From assembly GCA_949295125.1 (NCBI GenBank), contig CASFJV010000006.1:1-43777 (forward strand): 43,777 bases of DNA. Direction: 5' to 3'. Below, piece by piece: positions 27,360-36,663 of the stretch. The position numbers and the translations under genes were made by a program. The notes beneath the pieces are model-generated. The model was not told the DNA's origin and searched no databases. It saw nothing but the letters and a program-made list of their open reading frames with translations. Position 1 is the stretch's first letter. Each line of letters opens with the position of its first letter. Source of the stretch: an uncultured Spirochaetales bacterium (GTDB taxonomy: Bacteria > Spirochaetota > Spirochaetia > Sphaerochaetales > Sphaerochaetaceae).

Positions 27360-28301
27360 CTATTTCACAGTGCGGAGCATCACACGCGCATTCCCTCCGC
27401 ATGCCATCTCAAGTGGGCTGTCTTCAGTAAGGCTGAAATCCAGTATTCTGAAACTGATGTGGGAAGAAAGCATATTCCTTGCTTCCTTTACAGCCTCCAT
27501 CTCAATAGCTCCACCTCCGATTGTGGAGTATGTGCTTTTTTCCGTAATCAGCATTTCAGCGCCTTTCTCTCTCGGCCCGGATCCCTCTTTCTGGATTATC
27601 CTGGCAAGCACTGCATTCCCATCCAGTTCATCAATCACTTTCAGAAGGGAAAGGTCGACCGTCACCTGATGCCTGCTTTTACGGTATGTCCTGATTATTT
27701 CAGCGATAACTGAAATTGCTATCTCATCTGGAGTTTCAGCATTTATGTCAATGCCTATCGGGGCGTGGACCTTTTCCAGAGCCTTCCTGGATATCCCCAT
27801 CTCCTCAAGATGGCTGTATGTCAGGTTTATTTTCCTCCTGCTTCCGATCATGCCGACATATTTTGCCCCTTCATAGTTTTCAAGCACATACCTGAGGGCT
27901 TGCTCATCTGCCTTATGGCCATGGGTGAATATGAGGAAGTAAGGGTTTTCAAAAGAGTAGGTGCGCTCGAATATGCTTCTGAAGTCATCTATTACTATTG
28001 CAGCCCTGCTGTAATGCCCGCCGTCGAGCACTTCTTTCCTGTCATCAAATATGAATATTGGAAATGACATATCGCTGAGAATCCTGTAAATGCTCTTTCC
28101 TATGTGTCCAAAGCCGAAAAGGACAATGGATGGCATTATTGCAATACTCTCCTTTTCCGCATCCACACCTGGCATCCCGATTGAAGAGATCAGCTTGGAG
28201 CCTGAATAAATTGCCTCATTTCCGTTTGAATAGTCCGTAAGGCGTTCAAGATGCCCATATTCCAGCAGGCTGTCATAAAGTGCCTTATAGTATTCTTTCA
28301 T
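27360..28301 (-). CDS. XdhC/CoxI-family molybdoenzyme maturation factor with swapped domain order
   Basis: XdhC-family proteins bind molybdenum cofactor and help insert it, with sulfuration, into molybdenum hydroxylases. Here the Rossmann domain comes first (IVLFGFGHIGKSI at 59-71, GMIGSRRK at 150-157, PIGIDINAETPDEIA at 181-195). The XdhC_CoxI domain comes second (LLKVIDEL from 219, GSGPREKGAEML at 240-251, STIGGGAIEME at 259-269, ACGGNARVML at 300-309). The usual order is the reverse. The start overlaps the stop of the cysteine desulfurase by 4 nt (ATGA), so persulfide or selenide transfer between the two is plausible. The function with a selenium-dependent hydroxylase is inferred from neighbours. 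Confidence 0.88.
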   Translation of the reverse strand: MKEYYKALYDSLLEYGHLERLTDYSNGNEAIYSGSKLISSIGMPGVDAEKESIAIMPSIVLFGFGHIGKSIYRILSDMSFPIFIFDDRKEVLDGGHYSRAAIVIDDFRSIFERTYSFENPYFLIFTHGHKADEQALRYVLENYEGAKYVGMIGSRRKINLTYSHLEEMGISRKALEKVHAPIGIDINAETPDEIAISVIAEIIRTYRKSRHQVTVDLSLLKVIDELDGNAVLARIIQKEGSGPREKGAEMLITEKSTYSTIGGGAIEMEAVKEARNMLSSHISFRILDFSLTEDSPLEMACGGNARVMLRTVK

Positions 28302-29425
28302 CTCATTTCCCTCCTTATGGCATCAAGTGCAGCATCAAGTTCATCCTTTGATGTAAAAGGTGAAGGGGAGAGCCTTATTGTGCCCTCTGGGAATGTGCCG
28401 ATTGCCTTATGGGCCAATGCTGCGCAGTGAAGTCCTACCCTGGTTTCTATTCCATATTTTTCAAGAAGCCTTTCAGCAAGAATGGCATTATCCATTTCCT
28501 CTGCAGTTATGGAAATTACTGAGTTCCTGTCCTCTTTAAGCTCCCCGTGCACTTTTATCCCATCAATCCTGAGAAGCCCCTCAAGAAGATACAGCGTATT
28601 CTCCTTTTCCCTCTTCCTGAGCTCTTCAAGGTGCTCTTTCACATATCTTGCTGCAGCTGAAAGTCCTATGAGGCCCGGAATATTCCTTGTCCCGCTTTCA
28701 AACCTGTCAGGATAGATCTCAGGCTGGACTATTGAGTCTGATCTGCTTCCTGTCCCTCCTGTAATCAGTGGCTTCACTTTGCCAAGGAATTCTTTCTGCA
28801 GGATGAAGCCACCGGTTCCTTCCGGGCCAAGGAGGCCCTTATGCCCGGAAAAGCACATGGCCATAATATTCCTTTCATCCATCTTTATCTCCGAAAAAGG
28901 GAAAGCCTGGGCAGTATCTATGATCAGTGGAACGCCAAGGTCATTTGAGATGCATGCAAGTTTTTCTGTATCCTCGTTTACTCCTGTCACATTGCTGGAT
29001 ATGTTGAATACGATCGCTTTCGTGTTTTCCCTGAGAAGATGTGGAATGTCATCAAGGATGTTTCTCCCATCTCCTGTTACCCGAGGATATGAATAGGATA
29101 CGCCAATGTCAGAGAGAGTCCGCATTACGGCATTGTGCTCAGAGTGGGATATTATCACATGGTCATTCCTCTTAAGATATCCCCTTAAAACGGTGTTTAT
29201 CGACTCTGTAAGCCCTGAATTCAGGAACAGCGTTGATTCATCTGCGTGCCCCGCAAGGGATGAAATGTCAATACGCAGGTCTATCAGCTGGTTTACGGTA
29301 TCATAGGACTTCATGCTGTTCGTCCTGTAGATATTCCGTCCATTTTCCTTGATGTATGAAAATATGCTTTCTGCAACTCCTTCTGCCTTTGGAAAAGAAG
29401 TTGCTGCGTTATCTAGGTATATCAT
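28298..29425 (-). CDS. Cysteine desulfurase family protein (EF2568 type)
   Basis: This PLP enzyme of about 375 residues has MIYLDNAATSFPKAEGV at the N-terminus, the PLP lysine in MCFSGHKGLLGPEGTGGFIL and the C-terminal active Cys region RVGLHCAALAHKAIGT. The HCAALAHK loop and the gene context match the cysteine desulfurase subfamily found with orphan SelD clusters, which would release S or Se from (seleno)cysteine. Two start codons are possible, 29431 and 29425; the TATAAT ending at 29433 favours the second as a leaderless start. It is transcribed with xdhC and diverges from the yedE operon. Confidence 0.88.
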   Translation of the reverse strand: MIYLDNAATSFPKAEGVAESIFSYIKENGRNIYRTNSMKSYDTVNQLIDLRIDISSLAGHADESTLFLNSGLTESINTVLRGYLKRNDHVIISHSEHNAVMRTLSDIGVSYSYPRVTGDGRNILDDIPHLLRENTKAIVFNISSNVTGVNEDTEKLACISNDLGVPLIIDTAQAFPFSEIKMDERNIMAMCFSGHKGLLGPEGTGGFILQKEFLGKVKPLITGGTGSRSDSIVQPEIYPDRFESGTRNIPGLIGLSAAARYVKEHLEELRKREKENTLYLLEGLLRIDGIKVHGELKEDRNSVISITAEEMDNAILAERLLEKYGIETRVGLHCAALAHKAIGTFPEGTIRLSPSPFTSKDELDAALDAIRREMR

Positions 29426-29432
29426 ATCCATG

Positions 29433-29438
29433 ATTATA
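29433..29438 (-). promoter_or_regulatory. -10 element of the desulfurase-xdhC operon
   Basis: A perfect TATAAT ends 7 nt before the ATG at 29425; an earlier ATG at 29431 would lie upstream of the predicted start of transcription. No ribosome site is present. No convincing -35 is seen. Confidence 0.5.
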
Positions 29439-29463
29439 GCGCTTTTCATTGCAAATAGGAAAA

Positions 29464-29469
29464 TATAAT
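29464..29469 (+). promoter_or_regulatory. -10 element of the yedE-selD operon
   Basis: A perfect TATAAT lies 15 nt before the yedE ATG, and no ribosome site follows it. It is 25 bp from the divergent TATAAT of the desulfurase operon, so a single regulator could control both. Confidence 0.5.
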
Positions 29470-29484
29470 GGTAAATTAATTACT

Positions 29485-30558
29485 ATGTTAGAAATTAAAA
29501 AGGAAAAACGTAATCTAGCTATTGCAGGAGCCTTTATCGGAATAGCCGCAATAGTTCTTATGCATTTCGGGAACCCTGTTAATATGGGATTCTGCATCGC
29601 CTGTTTCATAAGGGATATTGCTGGAGCTCTGAGCCTTCATAATGCAGAGACTGTCCAGTATATCCGTCCGGAAATAATCGGCATTGTCCTGGGCTCTTTC
29701 ATCATCAGCGTAATAAGGGGAGAGTTCAGGCCAAGATCAGGATCATCTCCGCTTATCAGGTTTGTCTTCGGCTTTTTCATGATGGTAGGAGCCCTTGTCT
29801 TCCTTGGCTGTCCGCTGAGGATGGTACTGAGGCTTGCTGCAGGTGACCTGAATGCCCTTGTAGCGCTTTTTGGCTTTATTGCTGGAATTGCACTTGCTTC
29901 TTATTTCCTTAACAATGGCTTTTCCCTTGGCAGGGCAGCAAGGTCAAACAGCATGGAGGCTGTGGCTTTCCCGGCGATCAACATAGTGCTTCTGATAATT
30001 CTTGTTTTCTTCCCATTCCTGCTGAAATTCAGTGAATCAGGACCTGCAAGCATGAGAGCTCCAGTAGCACTTTCGCTTCTTGTTGCCATATTATCAGGTG
30101 CTTTTGCCCAGCGTACAAGGCTTTGCATGGCCGGCGGGGTAAGGGATATCTTCCTTATAAGGGATTTCACGCTCATTACTGGTTTTGCATCCATTTTCAT
30201 TTTTGCCTTAATCGGGAACCTTGCAGTCGGCAATTTCCACATTGGCTTTGCTGATCAGCCAATCAGCCATGACAAGCATCTCTGGAATTTCCTTTCCATG
30301 GCCCTTGTAGGACTTTCTGCCGCTCTTCTTGGAGGATGTCCCCTCAGGCAGCTTGTTCTTGCCGGGGAAGGCAACTCGGACAGTGCTGTGACTGTGCTTG
30401 GAATGCTTCTTGGAGCTGCATTTGCCCATAATGCGGGAGCTGCATCTGCTGCAGTTACAGGCCCTGGAACTGTTGGAAAAGTCTCAGTCATAGCTGGCCT
30501 TGTGCTGCTCACTGCTATTGCGGTATTCATAACGAAATCAAACCAGAAGGAGGAGTAG
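29485..30558 (+). CDS. yedE: YedE-type putative selenium transporter
   Basis: This 357-residue inner-membrane protein of the YeeE/YedE family contains two related halves. Each carries a conserved cysteine motif: VFLGCPLRMVLRLAAGD in the first and LLGGCPLRQLVLAGEGN in the second. YeeE imports thiosulfate; YedE proteins that sit beside selD, tusA/yedF and DUF3343 are thought to import a selenium compound. The start at 29485 is inferred from the TATAAT 15 nt upstream; an in-frame ATG at 29449 precedes the promoter. The stop is 1 nt before the next ATG. Confidence 0.88.
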   Translation: MLEIKKEKRNLAIAGAFIGIAAIVLMHFGNPVNMGFCIACFIRDIAGALSLHNAETVQYIRPEIIGIVLGSFIISVIRGEFRPRSGSSPLIRFVFGFFMMVGALVFLGCPLRMVLRLAAGDLNALVALFGFIAGIALASYFLNNGFSLGRAARSNSMEAVAFPAINIVLLIILVFFPFLLKFSESGPASMRAPVALSLLVAILSGAFAQRTRLCMAGGVRDIFLIRDFTLITGFASIFIFALIGNLAVGNFHIGFADQPISHDKHLWNFLSMALVGLSAALLGGCPLRQLVLAGEGNSDSAVTVLGMLLGAAFAHNAGAASAAVTGPGTVGKVSVIAGLVLLTAIAVFITKSNQKEE

Positions 30559-30559
30559 G

Positions 30560-30769
30560 ATGAAAGAGCTCGATGCAAGAGGGCTGAGCTGCCCTGAGCC
30601 TGTTATAATGGCAAAAAAAGGATTGAAAAGCAGCCCCGATGGGATAGAGATTGCAGTGGATAATGTTGCAAGCAAAGAGAATGTCACACGCTATCTTGAG
30701 GCTATGGGATGTTCTGTTTCAGTCAGGGAAGAGAAAGGCGGATGGAAGATAAGGGGCGAGAAGCAGTAA
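30560..30769 (+). CDS. TusA/SirA-like sulfur (selenium) carrier protein, YedF N-terminal domain only
   Basis: The 69-residue protein has the TusA motif ELDARGLSCPEPVIMAKKGL, in which Cys12 of the CPxP motif carries a persulfide or selenopersulfide. The remainder is the beta-alpha-beta tail ending GGWKIRGEKQ. YedF proteins of selenium clusters are usually about 190 residues with a second domain after this one; that domain is absent here. GGAGG lies just upstream in the end of yedE. It overlaps the DUF3343 gene by 28 nt. Confidence 0.85.
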   Translation: MKELDARGLSCPEPVIMAKKGLKSSPDGIEIAVDNVASKENVTRYLEAMGCSVSVREEKGGWKIRGEKQ

Positions 30770-30975
30770 TAACATTCTCCTCCCACTACGATGCTGTAAA
30801 GGCAAAGCGGGCGCTAAAGGGGGGAAAACTCGTTCCTGTTCCACGAGCTCTCTCCTCATCCTGCGGAACGGCGCTTTTATGCATGGAAAAAGAATACCTG
30901 GAACATGTTGGTGAGATAAGAAAGGAGAGTGTGTATGTATGGGAGGATGGAAAATGGTTAGGCTTACATCATTAG
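30742..30975 (+). CDS. DUF3343 protein, putative selenium/sulfur carrier
   Basis: This 77-residue protein has the DUF3343 pattern. The N-terminal strand is AVITFSSHYDAVKAKRAL, then KLVPVPRALSSSCGTALLC, where the conserved Cys after PVPRxxSSxCG is the likely functional residue. DUF3343 genes co-occur with orphan selD and yedE. The ATG at 30742 has an AAAGGCGG-like site. The gene overlaps both its neighbours (28 and 22 nt), so the four proteins from YedE to SelD are made from one tightly coupled message. Confidence 0.8.
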   Translation: MEDKGREAVITFSSHYDAVKAKRALKGGKLVPVPRALSSSCGTALLCMEKEYLEHVGEIRKESVYVWEDGKWLGLHH

Positions 30976-31979
30976 TTCATTCATCCGGCTGTGCCGCAAA
31001 GCTCAGTCCTAAGGATCTAGAGAAGGTGCTTAAGCAGATTCCCCTGATGGAGGATGATCATCTGATCGAAGGCTTTGAGCATAATGATGATGCCCTTGTG
31101 TATGACATTGGAGATGGCAGGGTCATTATTGAAACTGTGGATTTTTTCCCTCCAATGGTGGATGACCCCTATATTTTCGGCCAGATTGCGGCGGCAAACG
31201 CCCTTTCAGACATATATGCAATGGGGGCTGAGCCGAAGCTTGCAATGAATCTGATGTGTTTCCCCTCCTGTCTTGATCTTGATGTGATGAAGGAGATTCT
31301 TCTTGGCGGGCATGACAAGGTGAAGGAAGCCGGAGCTGTGATTGCAGGAGGCCACACCATAAGCGACAGGGAGCCTAAATATGGTCTTGCTGTAACAGGA
31401 TTTGCTAAAAAGGATTCCGTATGGCTCAACAGCGGACTATGCATTGGTGATGTGCTGGTCTTCACTAAGAAGATCGGGGTAGGGATTGTAAATACCGCAG
31501 CAAAAGTGGATGAGGCAGATAAGGAATCACTTGATGATGCGGTACTTTCAATGACAACGCTGAATAAAAGGGCAAGGGATTCTGCCAAGGGCCTTAATGT
31601 GCATGCAGCAACGGATGTGACCGGTTTTTCCATGCTCGGGCACCTGAGGGAAATGGCTGTTGCTTCTGGAAAATCCCTGAGAATAAGCTATTCAGGAATC
31701 GGCAAGATAAAAGGCGCAGAGGAGCTTGCACGTTTTGGCTTTATCCCTGAAGGGGCATACAACAACAGGGATTTCATCGCATATGATGTCCAGTTTTCTG
31801 GTGATATCAGGCGCGAAGAGGAGGATCTCCTTTTCGATCCTGAGACATCAGGAGGATTAATTCTCTCAATGAGCGAAGGAGATGCAGAAATATACCTTAA
31901 GAGGATGGAAGGGACTGCTGCAAGCATAATCGGAAGAGTCGAGGAGAGGAAAGATAAATCCGTATTTATAGAATCATAG
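30954..31979 (+). CDS. selD: Selenide, water dikinase
   Basis: SelD makes selenophosphate from selenide and ATP. The 341-residue protein has the expected start SLVHSSGCAAKLSPKDLEKV with the catalytic Cys13 (codon TGT, so not selenocysteine), followed by DDALVYDI, ANALSDIYAMGAEP, AGGHTISDREPKYGLAVTG and FDPETSGGLIL. The start at 30954 has GGGAGG at 7 nt. In this window there is no selA, selB or selC, and the neighbours are labile-selenium genes, so it fits the orphan SelD type that supplies selenium to a molybdenum hydroxylase instead of selenocysteine. Genes outside the window could change that. Confidence 0.95.
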   Translation: MVRLTSLVHSSGCAAKLSPKDLEKVLKQIPLMEDDHLIEGFEHNDDALVYDIGDGRVIIETVDFFPPMVDDPYIFGQIAAANALSDIYAMGAEPKLAMNLMCFPSCLDLDVMKEILLGGHDKVKEAGAVIAGGHTISDREPKYGLAVTGFAKKDSVWLNSGLCIGDVLVFTKKIGVGIVNTAAKVDEADKESLDDAVLSMTTLNKRARDSAKGLNVHAATDVTGFSMLGHLREMAVASGKSLRISYSGIGKIKGAEELARFGFIPEGAYNNRDFIAYDVQFSGDIRREEEDLLFDPETSGGLILSMSEGDAEIYLKRMEGTAASIIGRVEERKDKSVFIES

Positions 31980-31988
31980 CTGATCTGG

Positions 31989-31994
31989 TATTAT
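31989..31994 (+). promoter_or_regulatory. Possible internal promoter for the yczE-like gene
   Basis: TATTAT ends 7 nt before the ATG at 32002 and no ribosome site is present. It may give an additional leaderless transcript within the selD operon. A functional promoter is uncertain because no good -35 is seen. Confidence 0.35.
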
Positions 31995-32001
31995 TCTGGC
32001 G

Positions 32002-32700
32002 ATGAAAAAGGAATATTTCTTCAGGATGCTGTTTTACCTGTTGGGCCTGCTCTTCCTTGCTTTCGGCCTGACACTGAATACTGTTACAGGGCTGGGGGTA
32101 AGTGCGATAATCTCAGTCAGCCACACTGTATCTCTTATCCTTAATCTGCAGATAGGGGATACCACTTTCTTCCTCTATGCCCTTTTTGTGCTTGCTGAGA
32201 TCCTGATACATGTACATATCGCAGGAAAAAGGGGAAAAGCCGGGCTGCGGAAAGCCATTATCCTTGATATCCTGCAGCTTCCGCTGAGCCTTGCCTTTAC
32301 CAGGGTGATGAATGTCTTCCAGGCAATTTTGCCCATGCTTAGTGAGACAGAAGGTGTTTTCTCTACATTTCCAGCCCGTTTCATAATATTGCTGGTAGCC
32401 ATTGCATTCACAGGAATTGGAGCTGCAATGAGCCTTGACATGAAAATAGTTCCAAATCCTGGAGATGGCCTTGTCGGGGCATGTTCAGAGCTTTTCAGGA
32501 AGGAAGTAGGGCTGATGAAGAACATTATCGACCTGGTGAATATCACTCTATCGCTTTTCCTGAGTTTTATTTTCATAGGGTATCCTGAATCCGTCGGGAT
32601 AGGAACAATTGCCGCCGTAATAGGGGTTGGCAGGGTGATATCAGTCTTTAACAGGCATATGCTTGGCAGAATGCAGAAGCTTTCAGGGGTTAATCAATGA
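32002..32700 (+). CDS. YczE/YitT-like membrane protein
   Basis: This 232-residue protein has five or six hydrophobic helices. It starts MKKEYFFRMLFYLLGLLFLA and has LTLNTVTGLGVSAIISVSH and the polar loop MKIVPNPGDGLVGACSELF, which are typical of the YczE/DUF6198 family of integral membrane proteins. The biochemical role is unknown; related proteins occur near transporters and regulators. It follows selD by 22 bp and precedes the small lipoprotein, whose start overlaps its stop (ATGA). Participation in selenium or molybdopterin metabolism would be inferred from position only. Confidence 0.75.
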   Translation: MKKEYFFRMLFYLLGLLFLAFGLTLNTVTGLGVSAIISVSHTVSLILNLQIGDTTFFLYALFVLAEILIHVHIAGKRGKAGLRKAIILDILQLPLSLAFTRVMNVFQAILPMLSETEGVFSTFPARFIILLVAIAFTGIGAAMSLDMKIVPNPGDGLVGACSELFRKEVGLMKNIIDLVNITLSLFLSFIFIGYPESVGIGTIAAVIGVGRVISVFNRHMLGRMQKLSGVNQ

Positions 32701-32813
32701 AATGGCTTATTATCGTGATGCTTGCTCTCATGATGCTTGCTTCATCCTGCAATAAGAATGGCAGGGTCATTGGAGGAGCTGAAGGCGCAACAGGGATTTA
32801 CATTGGCTCTTGA
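32697..32813 (+). CDS. 38-residue lipoprotein with a Gly-rich tail
   Basis: The short gene starts on the ATGA that ends the yczE-like gene. It encodes a lysine, a hydrophobic stretch LIIVMLALMMLASSC with a good lipobox (Cys18), then NKNGRVIGGAEGATGIYIGS and a stop. After lipid attachment only 21 residues would remain. The tail resembles the IGGADGPTxIF motif found at the N-terminus of sodium-pumping decarboxylase beta subunits, but there is no room for such a protein. I cannot name a family. The lipobox, the overlap and the conserved-looking tail argue that it is real. Confidence 0.6.
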   Translation: MKWLIIVMLALMMLASSCNKNGRVIGGAEGATGIYIGS

Positions 32814-32817
32814 GGCA

Positions 32818-32832
32818 GCATGAAGTTCATGC
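32818..32832. promoter_or_regulatory. 15-bp palindrome upstream of ygeW
   Basis: GCATGAAGTTCATGC is a perfect 7-bp inverted repeat with a one-base centre. It lies 5 bp after the small lipoprotein stop and 44 bp upstream of the ygeW -35. It could be an operator for ygeW. Confidence 0.4.
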
Positions 32833-32843
32833 CTGATGCTTTT

Positions 32844-32873
32844 GCAACAAAATGCAACAAAATACAACAATTT
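32844..32873 (+). repeat. Three tandem 10-bp repeats before the ygeW promoter
   Basis: GCAACAAAAT is repeated exactly twice and then a third time as ACAACAATTT, without spacers. The array ends 2 bp before the -35 box of ygeW, so each unit falls on the same DNA face. An activator or repressor binding site is plausible. Confidence 0.5.
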
Positions 32874-32875
32874 CC

Positions 32876-32904
32876 TTGCTAACTTCATTTTTACATGGTA
32901 TGCT
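32876..32904 (+). promoter_or_regulatory. Promoter of ygeW
   Basis: TTGCTA (32876-32881), a 17-bp spacer and TATGCT (32899-32904) preceded by TGG (extended -10) lie 27 nt before the ygeW start codon. A leader with AGGAGG follows. Confidence 0.55.
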
Positions 32905-32931
32905 CAAATTAGTAATTTCTAGGAGGACTTG

Positions 32932-34134
32932 ATGTCTAAGAACAGAAGGGAAATCGAAGCTTTGATCAGTGAGCTCTCATCTTTAAAAACAGAGGGCATG
33001 TATCTTGATGATTTCTTCCACACATGGAAGAAGAGTGATGATGAAATCGATGCAGTTTTTAAGGTTGCAGAGATCTTAAGAGGACTGAGGGAGAATAATA
33101 TCTCAGCCAAGGTATTCGATTCCGGTCTTGGAATCAGCATTTTCCGCGATAACAGCACCAGAACACGTTTTTCTTTTGCATCCGCATGCAATATGCTTGG
33201 ACTTGAGGTGCAGGATCTTGATGAGAAACTGTCACAGATTGCACATGGAGAGACTGTAAGGGAGACAGCCAACATGGTTTCCTTCATGGCTGATGTTATC
33301 GGTATCCGTGACGATATGTATATCGGAAAAGGACACACATACATGAAGACAGTTTCTGAGGCTGTCCAGGAAGGATACAGGGACGGCGTTCTTGAGCAGA
33401 GGCCGACACTTGTAAACCTCCAGTGCGATATCGATCACCCGACACAGGCTATGGCAGACATGCTTCATGTCATCAACCATTTCGGCGGAGTGGAGAACCT
33501 GAAAGGCAAGAAGATTGCCATGACATGGGCATATTCACCTTCATATGGAAAGCCGCTTTCTGTGCCTCAGGGCATCATCGGCCTCTTCACGAGATTCGGA
33601 ATGGATGTTGTGCTTGCTCATCCTGAGGGATACGATGTGATGGGCGATGTTGAGGATGTCGCAAGGGAGAATGCAAAGAAGAGCGGAGGCTCATATAAGA
33701 AAGTTTCCAGCATGGAAGAAGCATTCAAGGATGCAGATATCGTATATCCGAAGTCATGGGCTCCTTTTGCTGTAATGGAAGAGAGGACAAAGCTCGTTGA
33801 AGAGGGCAGGTTCGATGATCTTAAGGATCTTGAGAAGAGATGCCTTGAGAATAATGCAAAGTTCAAGAACTGGACATGCTCCGAAGAGCTTATGAAGACT
33901 ACAAAGGATGGAAAGGCCCTTTACATGCACTGCCTGCCGGCAGATATTACAGGCGTAAGCTGCAAGGAAGGAGAGGTTGATGCATCTGTATTTGACCGCT
34001 ACCTTGTGCCTCTTTATAAGGAAGCTTCCTATAAGCCATATATCATCGCAGCCATGATCTTCCTCTCAAAGTTCAAGGATCCGTCAATCAAGCTCAAAGA
34101 GCTTCTTGACAGGGGAGAAAAGAGAGTTTTCTGA
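32932..34134 (+). CDS. ygeW: Knotted carbamoyltransferase YgeW
   Basis: This 400-residue protein belongs to the aspartate/ornithine carbamoyltransferase superfamily. The carbamoyl-phosphate site appears as FRDNSTRTRFSFASACNML at about residues 70-88, with DIDHPTQAMADMLH for the second substrate region and the late MHCLPADI. The length and the order match YgeW, found in E. coli in the same purine/molybdenum hydroxylase gene set as yqeB and yqeC; its true substrate is not established. The ATG at 32932 has AGGAGG 5 nt upstream. It has its own promoter and a strong terminator. Confidence 0.92.
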   Translation: MSKNRREIEALISELSSLKTEGMYLDDFFHTWKKSDDEIDAVFKVAEILRGLRENNISAKVFDSGLGISIFRDNSTRTRFSFASACNMLGLEVQDLDEKLSQIAHGETVRETANMVSFMADVIGIRDDMYIGKGHTYMKTVSEAVQEGYRDGVLEQRPTLVNLQCDIDHPTQAMADMLHVINHFGGVENLKGKKIAMTWAYSPSYGKPLSVPQGIIGLFTRFGMDVVLAHPEGYDVMGDVEDVARENAKKSGGSYKKVSSMEEAFKDADIVYPKSWAPFAVMEERTKLVEEGRFDDLKDLEKRCLENNAKFKNWTCSEELMKTTKDGKALYMHCLPADITGVSCKEGEVDASVFDRYLVPLYKEASYKPYIIAAMIFLSKFKDPSIKLKELLDRGEKRVF

Positions 34135-34175
34135 TCATACAGCTGATCCTGCTCTCAGGCAGGAATGAAAAACAG

Positions 34176-34218
34176 AACCGTTGCCACTTCAAGACTATGT
34201 CCGGCAACGGTTTTTTTT
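34176..34218 (+). terminator. Strong terminator after ygeW, probably bidirectional
   Basis: A 10-bp perfect stem (AACCGTTGCC with GGCAACGGTT) with a 17-nt loop is followed by a run of T. On the minus strand the same stem is followed by CTGTTTTTC, so it may also serve the convergent DUF3089 gene. Confidence 0.9.
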
Positions 34219-34232
34219 CTCGGTTTCCCTGT

Positions 34233-35210
34233 TCAGGAATTTTCATCCATCCAAGAATCTATCCTGTCACCCACATTCTCCTCTAGATTCCTGAAGAAGA
34301 ACTGGTAGTCATAGAGATGGTAAACCCCATCCGGAAAAAGATCTGAGCTGTAATCCTTGCTGTCAACATCAGTGACTTTCAGCGTACCCCTTTCTGGATC
34401 GAGATATGCTCCTGAAAGGTTTGGTACCTCCTTTACTATGGATCCAGAGTAGTCTGTGAAGCATGCTCCCTTGTTCAAAGCCTTATCTGCTTTCACGCTG
34501 TCTGTTCTCCAGTTCAATGGGTTTATCCCAAGCGTTTCTGTTCCTCTTGCGATGATTATTGAATCTTCGGTCTCAACGGATTCTGAGTTGAAGGAGATAA
34601 TTGATCCTGTATCATATTCGCCTTTAGCCATCCTCAGGTGAGGATATGCATCAAGATCTTCCTTTGTAACCTTCCAGCCTATGCAGAATGCAGCAATGAG
34701 GGAGTCCTGGAGAGCTGGCTCATCAAAAAGATCCTCAAGCAGCAACAGGACCATCTGTGCTCCCTGCGAAAAACCTGCAAGGATAAATGGCCTTCCTCCG
34801 TTGATGTGCTCCATGTAATATATGAAGGCATCCTTTACATCAGAGTAGGCTGTATCAAGATATTCACCTTCTTCTGCTTTCCTTTCCTGATAGACTGGAA
34901 ATGTCATCTGGCGGTAGAAAGGAGCATACATTTCTGTCCTTTCATCATATATTCCCCTTTCCATGTTCAAAGCACCGATGAAACTGCTTTTTGCCTGCTC
35001 ATCATCCATAGACATATTGAGGTTGCCTTCTTCTCCCATGTCCACTGTCGGGCAGATGAGGAAGAGATCGGCATCCTTATCTTTCCCTTCGGCAAAATAT
35101 GCCCAGCTTGCAGGATCTGAATAATCCGGCGATTTTCCTGCACTCTGGCAGGAGATGATCAGAAATGACAGCACAGCAAGCGCTGTTATCCGTATTAGTC
35201 TCTTTTTCAT
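34233..35210 (-). CDS. DUF3089 lipoprotein, alpha/beta-hydrolase-like
   Basis: The protein of about 325 residues has a lipoprotein signal (ALAVLSFLIISCQSAG). It has the DUF3089 core DPASWAYFAEGKDKDADLFLICPTVD and a nucleophile elbow PFILAGFSQGAQMV, followed by FCIGWKVTKEDLDAYPHL. DUF3089 proteins look like serine alpha/beta-hydrolases of unknown substrate and are probably attached to a membrane at the periplasmic side. The start at 35210 has GGGGG upstream. It lies 64 bp after the S41 peptidase on the same strand and may belong to that exported-protein group. Confidence 0.85.
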   Translation of the reverse strand: MKKRLIRITALAVLSFLIISCQSAGKSPDYSDPASWAYFAEGKDKDADLFLICPTVDMGEEGNLNMSMDDEQAKSSFIGALNMERGIYDERTEMYAPFYRQMTFPVYQERKAEEGEYLDTAYSDVKDAFIYYMEHINGGRPFILAGFSQGAQMVLLLLEDLFDEPALQDSLIAAFCIGWKVTKEDLDAYPHLRMAKGEYDTGSIISFNSESVETEDSIIIARGTETLGINPLNWRTDSVKADKALNKGACFTDYSGSIVKEVPNLSGAYLDPERGTLKVTDVDSKDYSSDLFPDGVYHLYDYQFFFRNLEENVGDRIDSWMDENS

Positions 35211-35274
35211 GGTAGCCCCCAATACATTCAGAGCATATTGCTTTGCTTAAGTATTTTCCAGAGTCAGCATGAAT

Positions 35275-36663
35275 TTAAATTAAATTCCTGATATAGCTGA
35301 AAGCCGCCTGAAGCCTGCCATCATTTCCCTTTTCGAACTCATCTGAATTAAACGGTACCATTTCATCCGGATCTATTCCCGTTCTTTCATATACTGTGCC
35401 ATCCTTATATGCGTTATGCATGCTTGAAGCGGAAAGCGATAGGTATGGCACTGCTTCAAATGTTCCTGAATTGTCCATATCTGTAGAGTCTGTGATATAA
35501 CCGGTTGCTCCTACTGTGGTATTTCCGATTATCCTGATGCTGCGCCCTTTTTCCTGCAATGCCTTCATTATCATTAAAGTTAACTCAGAAAATGATGCTG
35601 AGCTGCTGTTCACAAGAACGGCTATAGGAACATCATCATTCATGGCAATGCCATCTTTATCAGGAAGGAAGCGTATTGGAACCCATGATGTGTAGTCAAG
35701 ACGGCTGTCTCCTATTTTTGCCCTGGTAAGTGAATATATGAATGGTTCATCATCCAGTCTTCCCCAGAGCAGGGGAATATCATCCTCCACGCCACCTCCA
35801 TTTCCCCTGAGATCGATAATCAGTCCCTTTGTGCCATCCTCAGCAATCCAGGATTTGAATGTGCTGAGTATCTTTTCCAGCCTTTTTCCAAGCAGCTGGA
35901 TTTCACTCTCATCCTCCGTTGCAAGGAAATCCTGGTAAACTGAGAAAATGGAGTTGCTGAATCCGAAATAGACTATGCCATCTCCTGTTTTTCCAAGCAT
36001 GACATTCAAATTGTCCAGAAAGACTGTCAGGTGATGAGAGAGGGCAATGTACTCTTCAAAGTATTCTCCTGCCTTGGTCTCAAGGCTCTCAGATTCAGAT
36101 GATTCCAGATACATGTCCCTGTATCCGCCTCCTTCAAGAACCGGAAGGGAGAATGTGTAGTACATGATTGTCCCGATATTCTCTCTGAGGTAGTCAGATT
36201 TTCCATACCTATCATCCTCGTATAGGGCATAGAACTCATCATAGTACAGGAAACAATTCAGGATTTCTTCCTCACTGTACCCAAGCTTTTCAAGCTGCTT
36301 ATTTATTCCTGCATTGAACCAGAATCTTAGGTATTGGCCATCGCTTATATCAAGGCTGTAGTGCATGTCATCAAGGCCCTTCAGTATTTCATAGAATAAT
36401 CTTCCGCCTGCTTCACTTGTTGAAGAATTTATCTCTCCAAGTTTCTCGAACTGTGGAAAGTATTCTTTATATATGCTGTCCCATTCAGATCCGGGAGAAT
36501 CAAGGAACCAGAATGTATAGTTATCATTCATGCCATGCCAGAATGCGTTGAAGACAGATGCCCATGCATTATCCACAATATAGTCCTGTGGTGGAATTCT
36601 TTGACCTATCTCGCAAGAACTGAAAAGTATGAGGGTAAGTATTATGATAAGGATCTTTCTCAT
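35275..36663 (-). CDS. S41-family peptidase, lipoprotein
   Basis: This 462-residue protein has the lipobox signal LIIILTLILFSSCEIGQ, then a helical N-terminal domain and an S41 (tail-specific protease-like) core. The core has EDGTKGLIIDLRGNGGGVED and the nucleophile region AVLVNSSSASFSELTLMIM, with a later TTVGATGYITDST. No PDZ domain is obvious. Members cleave C-termini or act as surface hydrolases. The ATG overlaps the stop of the beta-barrel gene (ATGA), so both are co-translated. The target is unknown. Confidence 0.85.
   Translation of the reverse strand: MRKILIIILTLILFSSCEIGQRIPPQDYIVDNAWASVFNAFWHGMNDNYTFWFLDSPGSEWDSIYKEYFPQFEKLGEINSSTSEAGGRLFYEILKGLDDMHYSLDISDGQYLRFWFNAGINKQLEKLGYSEEEILNCFLYYDEFYALYEDDRYGKSDYLRENIGTIMYYTFSLPVLEGGGYRDMYLESSESESLETKAGEYFEEYIALSHHLTVFLDNLNVMLGKTGDGIVYFGFSNSIFSVYQDFLATEDESEIQLLGKRLEKILSTFKSWIAEDGTKGLIIDLRGNGGGVEDDIPLLWGRLDDEPFIYSLTRAKIGDSRLDYTSWVPIRFLPDKDGIAMNDDVPIAVLVNSSSASFSELTLMIMKALQEKGRSIRIIGNTTVGATGYITDSTDMDNSGTFEAVPYLSLSASSMHNAYKDGTVYERTGIDPDEMVPFNSDEFEKGNDGRLQAAFSYIRNLI

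Follow-up and report, generated by a model that had tools for sequence, protein, structure and literature searches.

A small predicted lipoprotein of a spirochaete ends in a peptide resembling the Asp203 hairpin tip of sodium-pump decarboxylase beta subunits

The described proteins closest to the product of the gene reported here are the beta subunits of sodium-pump decarboxylases (OadB, GcdB and MmdB; PF03977, TIGR01109; PDB 6iva, 6iww). Members of this family possess about ten transmembrane helices and two hairpins, the tip of the helical hairpin H1, within the core domain, carries Asp203, and the exchange D203A abolishes sodium binding (eLife 2020 structure, PMC7274780). When the beta subunit of the genome studied here is aligned to 6iva, the Asp of its GGADGPT segment is residue 203. 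In Clostridia, short proteins with this segment frequently bear the name sodium ion-translocating decarboxylase subunit beta. Our data concern a gene of 38 codons whose product ends in a variant of the same segment. It is located in a window, i.e. the whole stretch of DNA that was analysed, of 43,777 nucleotides from an uncultured Spirochaetales bacterium of the family Sphaerochaetaceae (assembly GCA_949295125.1, contig CASFJV010000006.1). The features of the locus, and the short proteins with a similar tail in other genomes, are compiled in Table 1.

Table 1. Features at the locus (positions in the window) and short motif-tailed proteins of other genomes
Feature	Position	Strand	Sequence	Basis
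Small gene, predicted lipoprotein, 38 codons and stop	32697..32813	+		Translation, codon score, relatives with the same layout
Possible ribosome-binding site	32685..32689	+	AGGGG	Read from sequence
Small-gene start overlapping the yczE-like stop	32697..32700	+	ATGA	Read from sequence
Predicted signal peptide and lipobox, Cys18 the expected lipid-bearing residue	32697..32750	+	LASSC	Sequence, hydrophobic segment; processing inferred
Motif codons, residues 25-36	32769..32804	+	IGGAEGATGIYI	Pattern once in window; corresponds to the Asp203 segment of OAD beta
DUF6198/YczE-like membrane protein, upstream neighbour	32002..32700	+		PF19700, 33.2 bits (cut-off 27)
selD	30939..31979	+		TIGR00476, 359 bits
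ygeW carbamoyltransferase, downstream neighbour	32929..34134	+		TIGR03316, 769 bits
Short motif-tailed protein, G036 (C4)			MKRNKLLTIICLLVIISILSSCNRENLEIIGGADAPTGIYIGT	
Short motif-tailed protein, G044			MRKIAVIAVIAAILLAVFLAGNNGKSTVIGGADGPTGIYVQ	
Short motif-tailed protein, G006			MRRKALSIIAILFIVLSMAGCNKKTIGGADGPTEIYIAE	
Short motif-tailed protein, G039, start codon uncertain			KLRFLIFLLLFLSFVSCSKSGVIGGSDTSTSIYVVSQR	
Short motif-tailed protein, G490			MARIKSALLLLITVLALLLPSCTQSEADRGIIGSADGPTLIYVSS	
Short motif-tailed protein, G015			MTKKKFFGYAAIVIGAVLVSWTLYAAIVPPPETVGIIGGADGPTAIYVAEEDAK	
Short motif-tailed protein, G003			MNIRKIIGYALIVAGAVVLSCMLHTCLQPENLLVIGSADGPTAIVVSD	

The frame at 32697-32813 translates to MKWLIIVMLALMMLASSCNKNGRVIGGAEGATGIYIGS (38 residues, then a stop codon), and its ATG forms an ATGA overlap with the TGA of the DUF6198/YczE-like gene (32002-32700), as an earlier sequence-only reading of this DNA had claimed. 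Its codon score (+0.487 bits per codon) is gene-like, given that pieces of the window's long genes of similar length score 0.403 +/- 0.151 and, out of frame, -0.78 +/- 0.44; the remaining five frames across the same positions have negative scores. The tail pattern IGGAEGATGIYI has its single match in the window here and none in 100 shuffles of the window. We conclude that 32697-32813 is almost certainly a real, if easily overlooked, coding gene. A chance open frame, which the short length and the lack of a close orthologue at the same place might suggest, is contradicted by the codon score, by the absence of the tail from the shuffles and by matching small proteins in other genomes, and appears extremely improbable. 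A search of the small protein against Pfam and NCBIfam gave no match above cut-off, a simple scan found no terminator 3' of the gene, and no RNA element was found within positions 28000-36000 of the window.

The selenium-gene setting proposed earlier is confirmed: the small gene follows genes for a cysteine-desulfurase-like protein, a YedE-family selenium transporter, a TusA-like protein, a Se/S carrier-like protein, SelD and the DUF6198 protein, in this order, and precedes ygeW. The cluster is tightly packed; its Se/S carrier-like frame (30709-30975) overlaps its neighbours on either side, the preceding TusA-like gene and the following selD (30939-31979). The score of the DUF6198 protein against the NCBIfam YczE model, 29.9 bits, is far under the cut-off of 205. 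A coupling of the small gene to yczE or to selenium, which had likewise been proposed, was not supported. The frame is missing at the yczE-like orthologue loci of 15 other genomes, and a conserved yczE link was therefore rejected; L032, whose orthologous cluster is the closest one (64% identity in yczE), has a thiamine-metabolism-like gene next and no small frame, and when all yczE-like loci of the genus were scanned, the window's own genome was the only one with the motif. The suggested comparison of relatives downstream of yczE and selD thus had a divided outcome, in that the frame is absent at the syntenic position, whereas proteins of this type do occur elsewhere in the genus and the family, adjoining other genes. 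Because the yczE orthologues lack the frame and the related small proteins are not found beside yczE or selD, the link to selenium and YczE is positional only. The start-stop overlap within a selenium cluster could still be taken as a sign of a selenium-specific partner of the YczE-like protein, but the orthologous yczE genes without such a neighbour and the location of the small protein's relatives elsewhere largely refute this hypothesis, which we consider very unlikely.

The lipobox LASSC at residues 14-18, with its Cys at position 18, is plausible, as had been thought: it is accompanied by an N-terminal hydrophobic core (hydropathy above 1.6 over residues 1-19); the n-region has only one Lys. 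Lipidation and topology of the protein are predicted from these features of the sequence. Export and processing at the lipobox would leave a lipid-anchored peptide of 21 residues, C-NKNGRV-IGGAEGATGIYI-GS, i.e. a short tether with one linear motif, which would face the outside of the cytoplasmic membrane or the periplasm. A predicted mature product of only about 21 residues that consists mostly of motif is reminiscent of a released lipopeptide or peptide signal, like the pheromones cut from lipoprotein precursors. However, the motif also occurs within large anchored proteins, and no receptor or export gene is seen near the small gene, which makes a released signal most improbable.

The likeness of the tail to the GGADGPTxIF motif of decarboxylase beta subunits had been recognized correctly, with the qualification that the window protein has Glu in place of Asp203 and Ala in place of Pro; the other small proteins keep Asp at the position equivalent to Asp203. 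Among 200 versions of the window protein with a shuffled preceding part, 111 score as high as the real one or higher against the beta subunit, and therefore only the tail is common to the window protein and OadB. With 38 residues and one hydrophobic segment the protein lacks the architecture of OAD_beta, and it matches neither PF03977 nor TIGR01109; the other small proteins reach at most 27 bits against a PF03977 cut-off of 31.6. A truncated pump gene that retains a membrane helix and the hairpin was considered and rejected for the window protein and for those of G044, G006 and G003, the N-terminal parts of which score no better than shuffled ones. The same test is borderline for G036, G039, G490 and G015, where the real score is equalled or exceeded by 8 to 20 of the 200 shuffled versions, and in two Treponema-type proteins the likeness to the beta subunit continues upstream of the motif.

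A search with the 38 residues in 149 related genomes yielded short proteins of this type from the window's genus, and a profile built from six of these found more; altogether at least seven further short proteins of the same bacterial family end in the same kind of tail (all counts of motif carriers are lower bounds). They share a layout of an N-terminal hydrophobic segment and a C-terminal motif (G036, G044, G006, G039, G490, G015 and G003; Table 1). The earlier claim of a genuine small envelope protein, a putative lipoprotein, with a conserved GGADGPT-like tail is thereby supported. Not every relative is a lipoprotein, because the G044 protein has no lipobox Cys; it and the G015 protein are simple membrane anchors by appearance. 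The neighbourhoods of the similar short proteins are mostly unrelated, which we counted in favour of a portable tag. The gene of G044 forms an ATGA overlap, too, with a ppk-like gene, and that of G006 adjoins glutamate-synthase-like genes (both judged by eye). The sole shared neighbourhood is an S41-type peptidase gene (by eye) beside the small genes of G490 and G036b; S41-type genes occur in 27 genomes of the family, and only in these two does the small gene lie beside them. Among the 15 tail codons, five differ synonymously between G490 and G036b and two exchange residues at variable positions; the N-terminal parts of the two proteins do not match each other in frame. G036b (L179, G036:C10, 3237-3374) is a second copy in G036 with an intact tail and without a normal ATG start; it may be a pseudogene. 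In G015 (L180, G015:C173, 2834-3067) the small membrane protein is encoded between hflK-like and hflC-like genes (by eye); hflK and hflC encode partners of the FtsH protease.

The motif recurs in unrelated proteins at flexible, accessible positions (flexibility judged by eye). It directly follows the lipobox in a rhodanese-like lipoprotein (G084, by eye) and the signal peptide in a patatin-like protein (G058, G481, G492, G489 and G087; also by eye), it precedes a membrane segment in an alpha/beta hydrolase (G016, Pfam), it stands at the N-terminus, with a membrane helix next, in several Treponema-type proteins, and in G012 and G021 it lies within an acidic linker of a larger, exported-looking protein. 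On viral contigs and one plasmid it was found after the signal peptide of one protein and, moreover, in two HAAS-domain proteins. Short protein queries of plasmid and phage collections gave few matches; these include a fragment of the pump (L120) and, on a plasmid from Subdoligranulum, a protein with a HAAS domain. Most motif copies are thus close to a membrane anchor and on the expected outer side. Exceptions exist, and a membrane-proximal rule is not universal, because some copies on viral contigs (L095, L117, L200) have no membrane segment.

These viral contigs deserve a brief description. L095/L096 and L117/L118 encode proteins of about 220 residues with an N-terminal SIIGGADGPTSIFIAGK or SVIGGADGPTSVFVVKK and without a membrane segment, for which no family match besides the motif was obtained. 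The protein of L200 (IMGVR_UViG_3300032167_004186) has 511 residues, no obvious signal peptide and GIIGGADGPTAIIVG near its C-terminus. Searches with the bodies of two of the viral-contig proteins found no further families of relatives. Elsewhere, a frame with motif and membrane segment runs into a PurN-like formyltransferase (L107, G450:C6), which represents either a fusion or an internal start, and a DNA pattern for IGGAES[SA]TGI recurs in genus g3 (G511:C56:21507, G512:C1:1221169 and G516:C2:1018244).

In a scan across the phylum the strict pattern matched 136 of 393 genomes; the reversed control pattern matched none of the genomes listed. Of the pattern loci, 30 were read, and all are pump genes except for one stray copy, the genome of which also has the pump. 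A full-length beta subunit is present in 34 of 35 examined genomes with a stray motif; the exception, G636, is an incomplete genome. This co-occurrence might indicate a pump-directed peptide, in which the lipoprotein would bind the sodium-pump decarboxylase or its assembly factor by imitating the hairpin tip, to which the motif is nearly identical, and would thereby regulate the pump. Co-occurrence is, however, weak evidence for a functional link, because nearly all members of these families have the pump, and G636 carries the motif with no full-length pump gene detected in its incomplete sequence. Furthermore, the hairpin tip is located inside the core domain (PMC7274780), and the window copy bears Glu and not the sodium-binding Asp. 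We regard a pump-directed role as unlikely.

Within the genus the motif is patchy, being present in at least about 11 of 48 genomes. The DNA of stray motifs agrees with the pump gene of the same genome at 44 of 135 codons, compared with 37.7 for cross-genome pairs; the strays are about as different from their own as from other pump genes and are therefore not recent copies, so that a recent origin from the same genome's pump gene is not supported. Counts of synonymous changes over the motif are biased towards conservation, because most copies were found by the amino acids of the motif itself. The comparisons within the patatin-like family and between G490 and G036b are less affected by this bias. 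The patatin-like family (L207-L220, genus g12) was collected by its body from fourteen genomes: five of them carry the motif, G491 has a decayed version, and in the other genomes it is missing or not clearly recognizable. A comparison of G481 with G492 shows unchanged core letters preceded by altered residues; one of G058 with G491 shows loss of the motif. Conservation thus exceeds that of the surroundings in G481/G492 and also in G490/G036b, and does not in G058/G491. Because most species lack it and G491 retains only a decayed form, the motif is dispensable in the patatin-like family. The overall picture is one of gains and losses of the motif, with constraint in some places.

What could such a peptide be? 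The coding character of the gene, the existence of similar small proteins, the portability of the motif, its usual membrane-proximal position and the restriction of the likeness to the tail are supported directly. The recurrence on many unrelated proteins, immediately behind a signal peptide or adjacent to a membrane anchor, leads us to read the motif as a portable docking or recognition tag: the motif of the Asp203 hairpin tip would stand alone in a small lipoprotein and would be read by a component of the envelope. That the window gene encodes a small lipoprotein displaying such a tag at the outer face of the membrane is, in our view, about equally likely to be right or wrong, and its reading by a partner is inferred. 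Against a tag we counted the bias of the synonymous counts, the dispensability of the motif in the patatin-like family, the exceptions on viral contigs and the window copy, in which Asp and Pro are replaced. The strongest competing explanation is a relic without function: a pump-gene-derived or pump-like peptide would have been joined to exported proteins, by chance or through recombination, would be tolerated in flexible linkers and tails, and would decay. Gain and decay among patatin-like orthologues, the patchy presence in the genus, a pump gene in nearly all carriers, the G036b copy without a normal start and the loss of Asp and Pro from the window copy are all in line with a relic. Nevertheless, the copies are not recent, the window gene has an intact frame and gene-like codon usage, and, unless selection acts, it is difficult to see why many unrelated proteins should have gained the motif at the same type of site; we therefore assign the relic a rather low, though by no means negligible, probability.

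The motif was not found in print in any of the open-access papers searched, and the designation of the small envelope protein as undescribed holds as far as that literature goes. Should the motif serve as a recognition tag, a so far undescribed component of the bacterial envelope would be expected to read it, and the scores that unrelated small or exported proteins obtain against the decarboxylase beta family would be accounted for. Short OAD_beta matches need not be pump fragments and should be treated with caution. Even as a relic, a peptide repeatedly gained and lost at one type of site would represent an unusual evolutionary pattern. It is tentatively conceivable, although we lean towards doubt, that a new class of portable envelope motif, identical to the loop at the ion site of the pump, labels numerous unrelated exported proteins of spirochaetes and, probably, of other gut bacteria, that some genes, the window gene among them, make little beyond the lipid-anchored motif, and that a dedicated receptor, chaperone or processing enzyme reads it.

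Compared with known systems, the window protein has the IGGADGPTxIY segment at Asp203 in common with the OadB/GcdB/MmdB beta subunits. Only about 12 residues are shared, however, and both the multi-helix core and the second hairpin are lacking. With small bacterial lipoproteins in general it shares a signal peptide, a lipobox and a very short mature part, although it matched no named small-lipoprotein family in the NCBIfam search, and its mature part, in contrast to that general class, is a tether plus a recurring motif. The sorting signals LPXTG, GlyGly-CTERM and PEP-CTERM are likewise single short motifs on otherwise unrelated exported proteins. To our knowledge, no processing enzyme is known for the motif described here, in contrast to these signals. 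It also differs from them in that no C-terminal hydrophobic segment and basic tail follow it, and in that it occurs at N-termini and in linkers as well.
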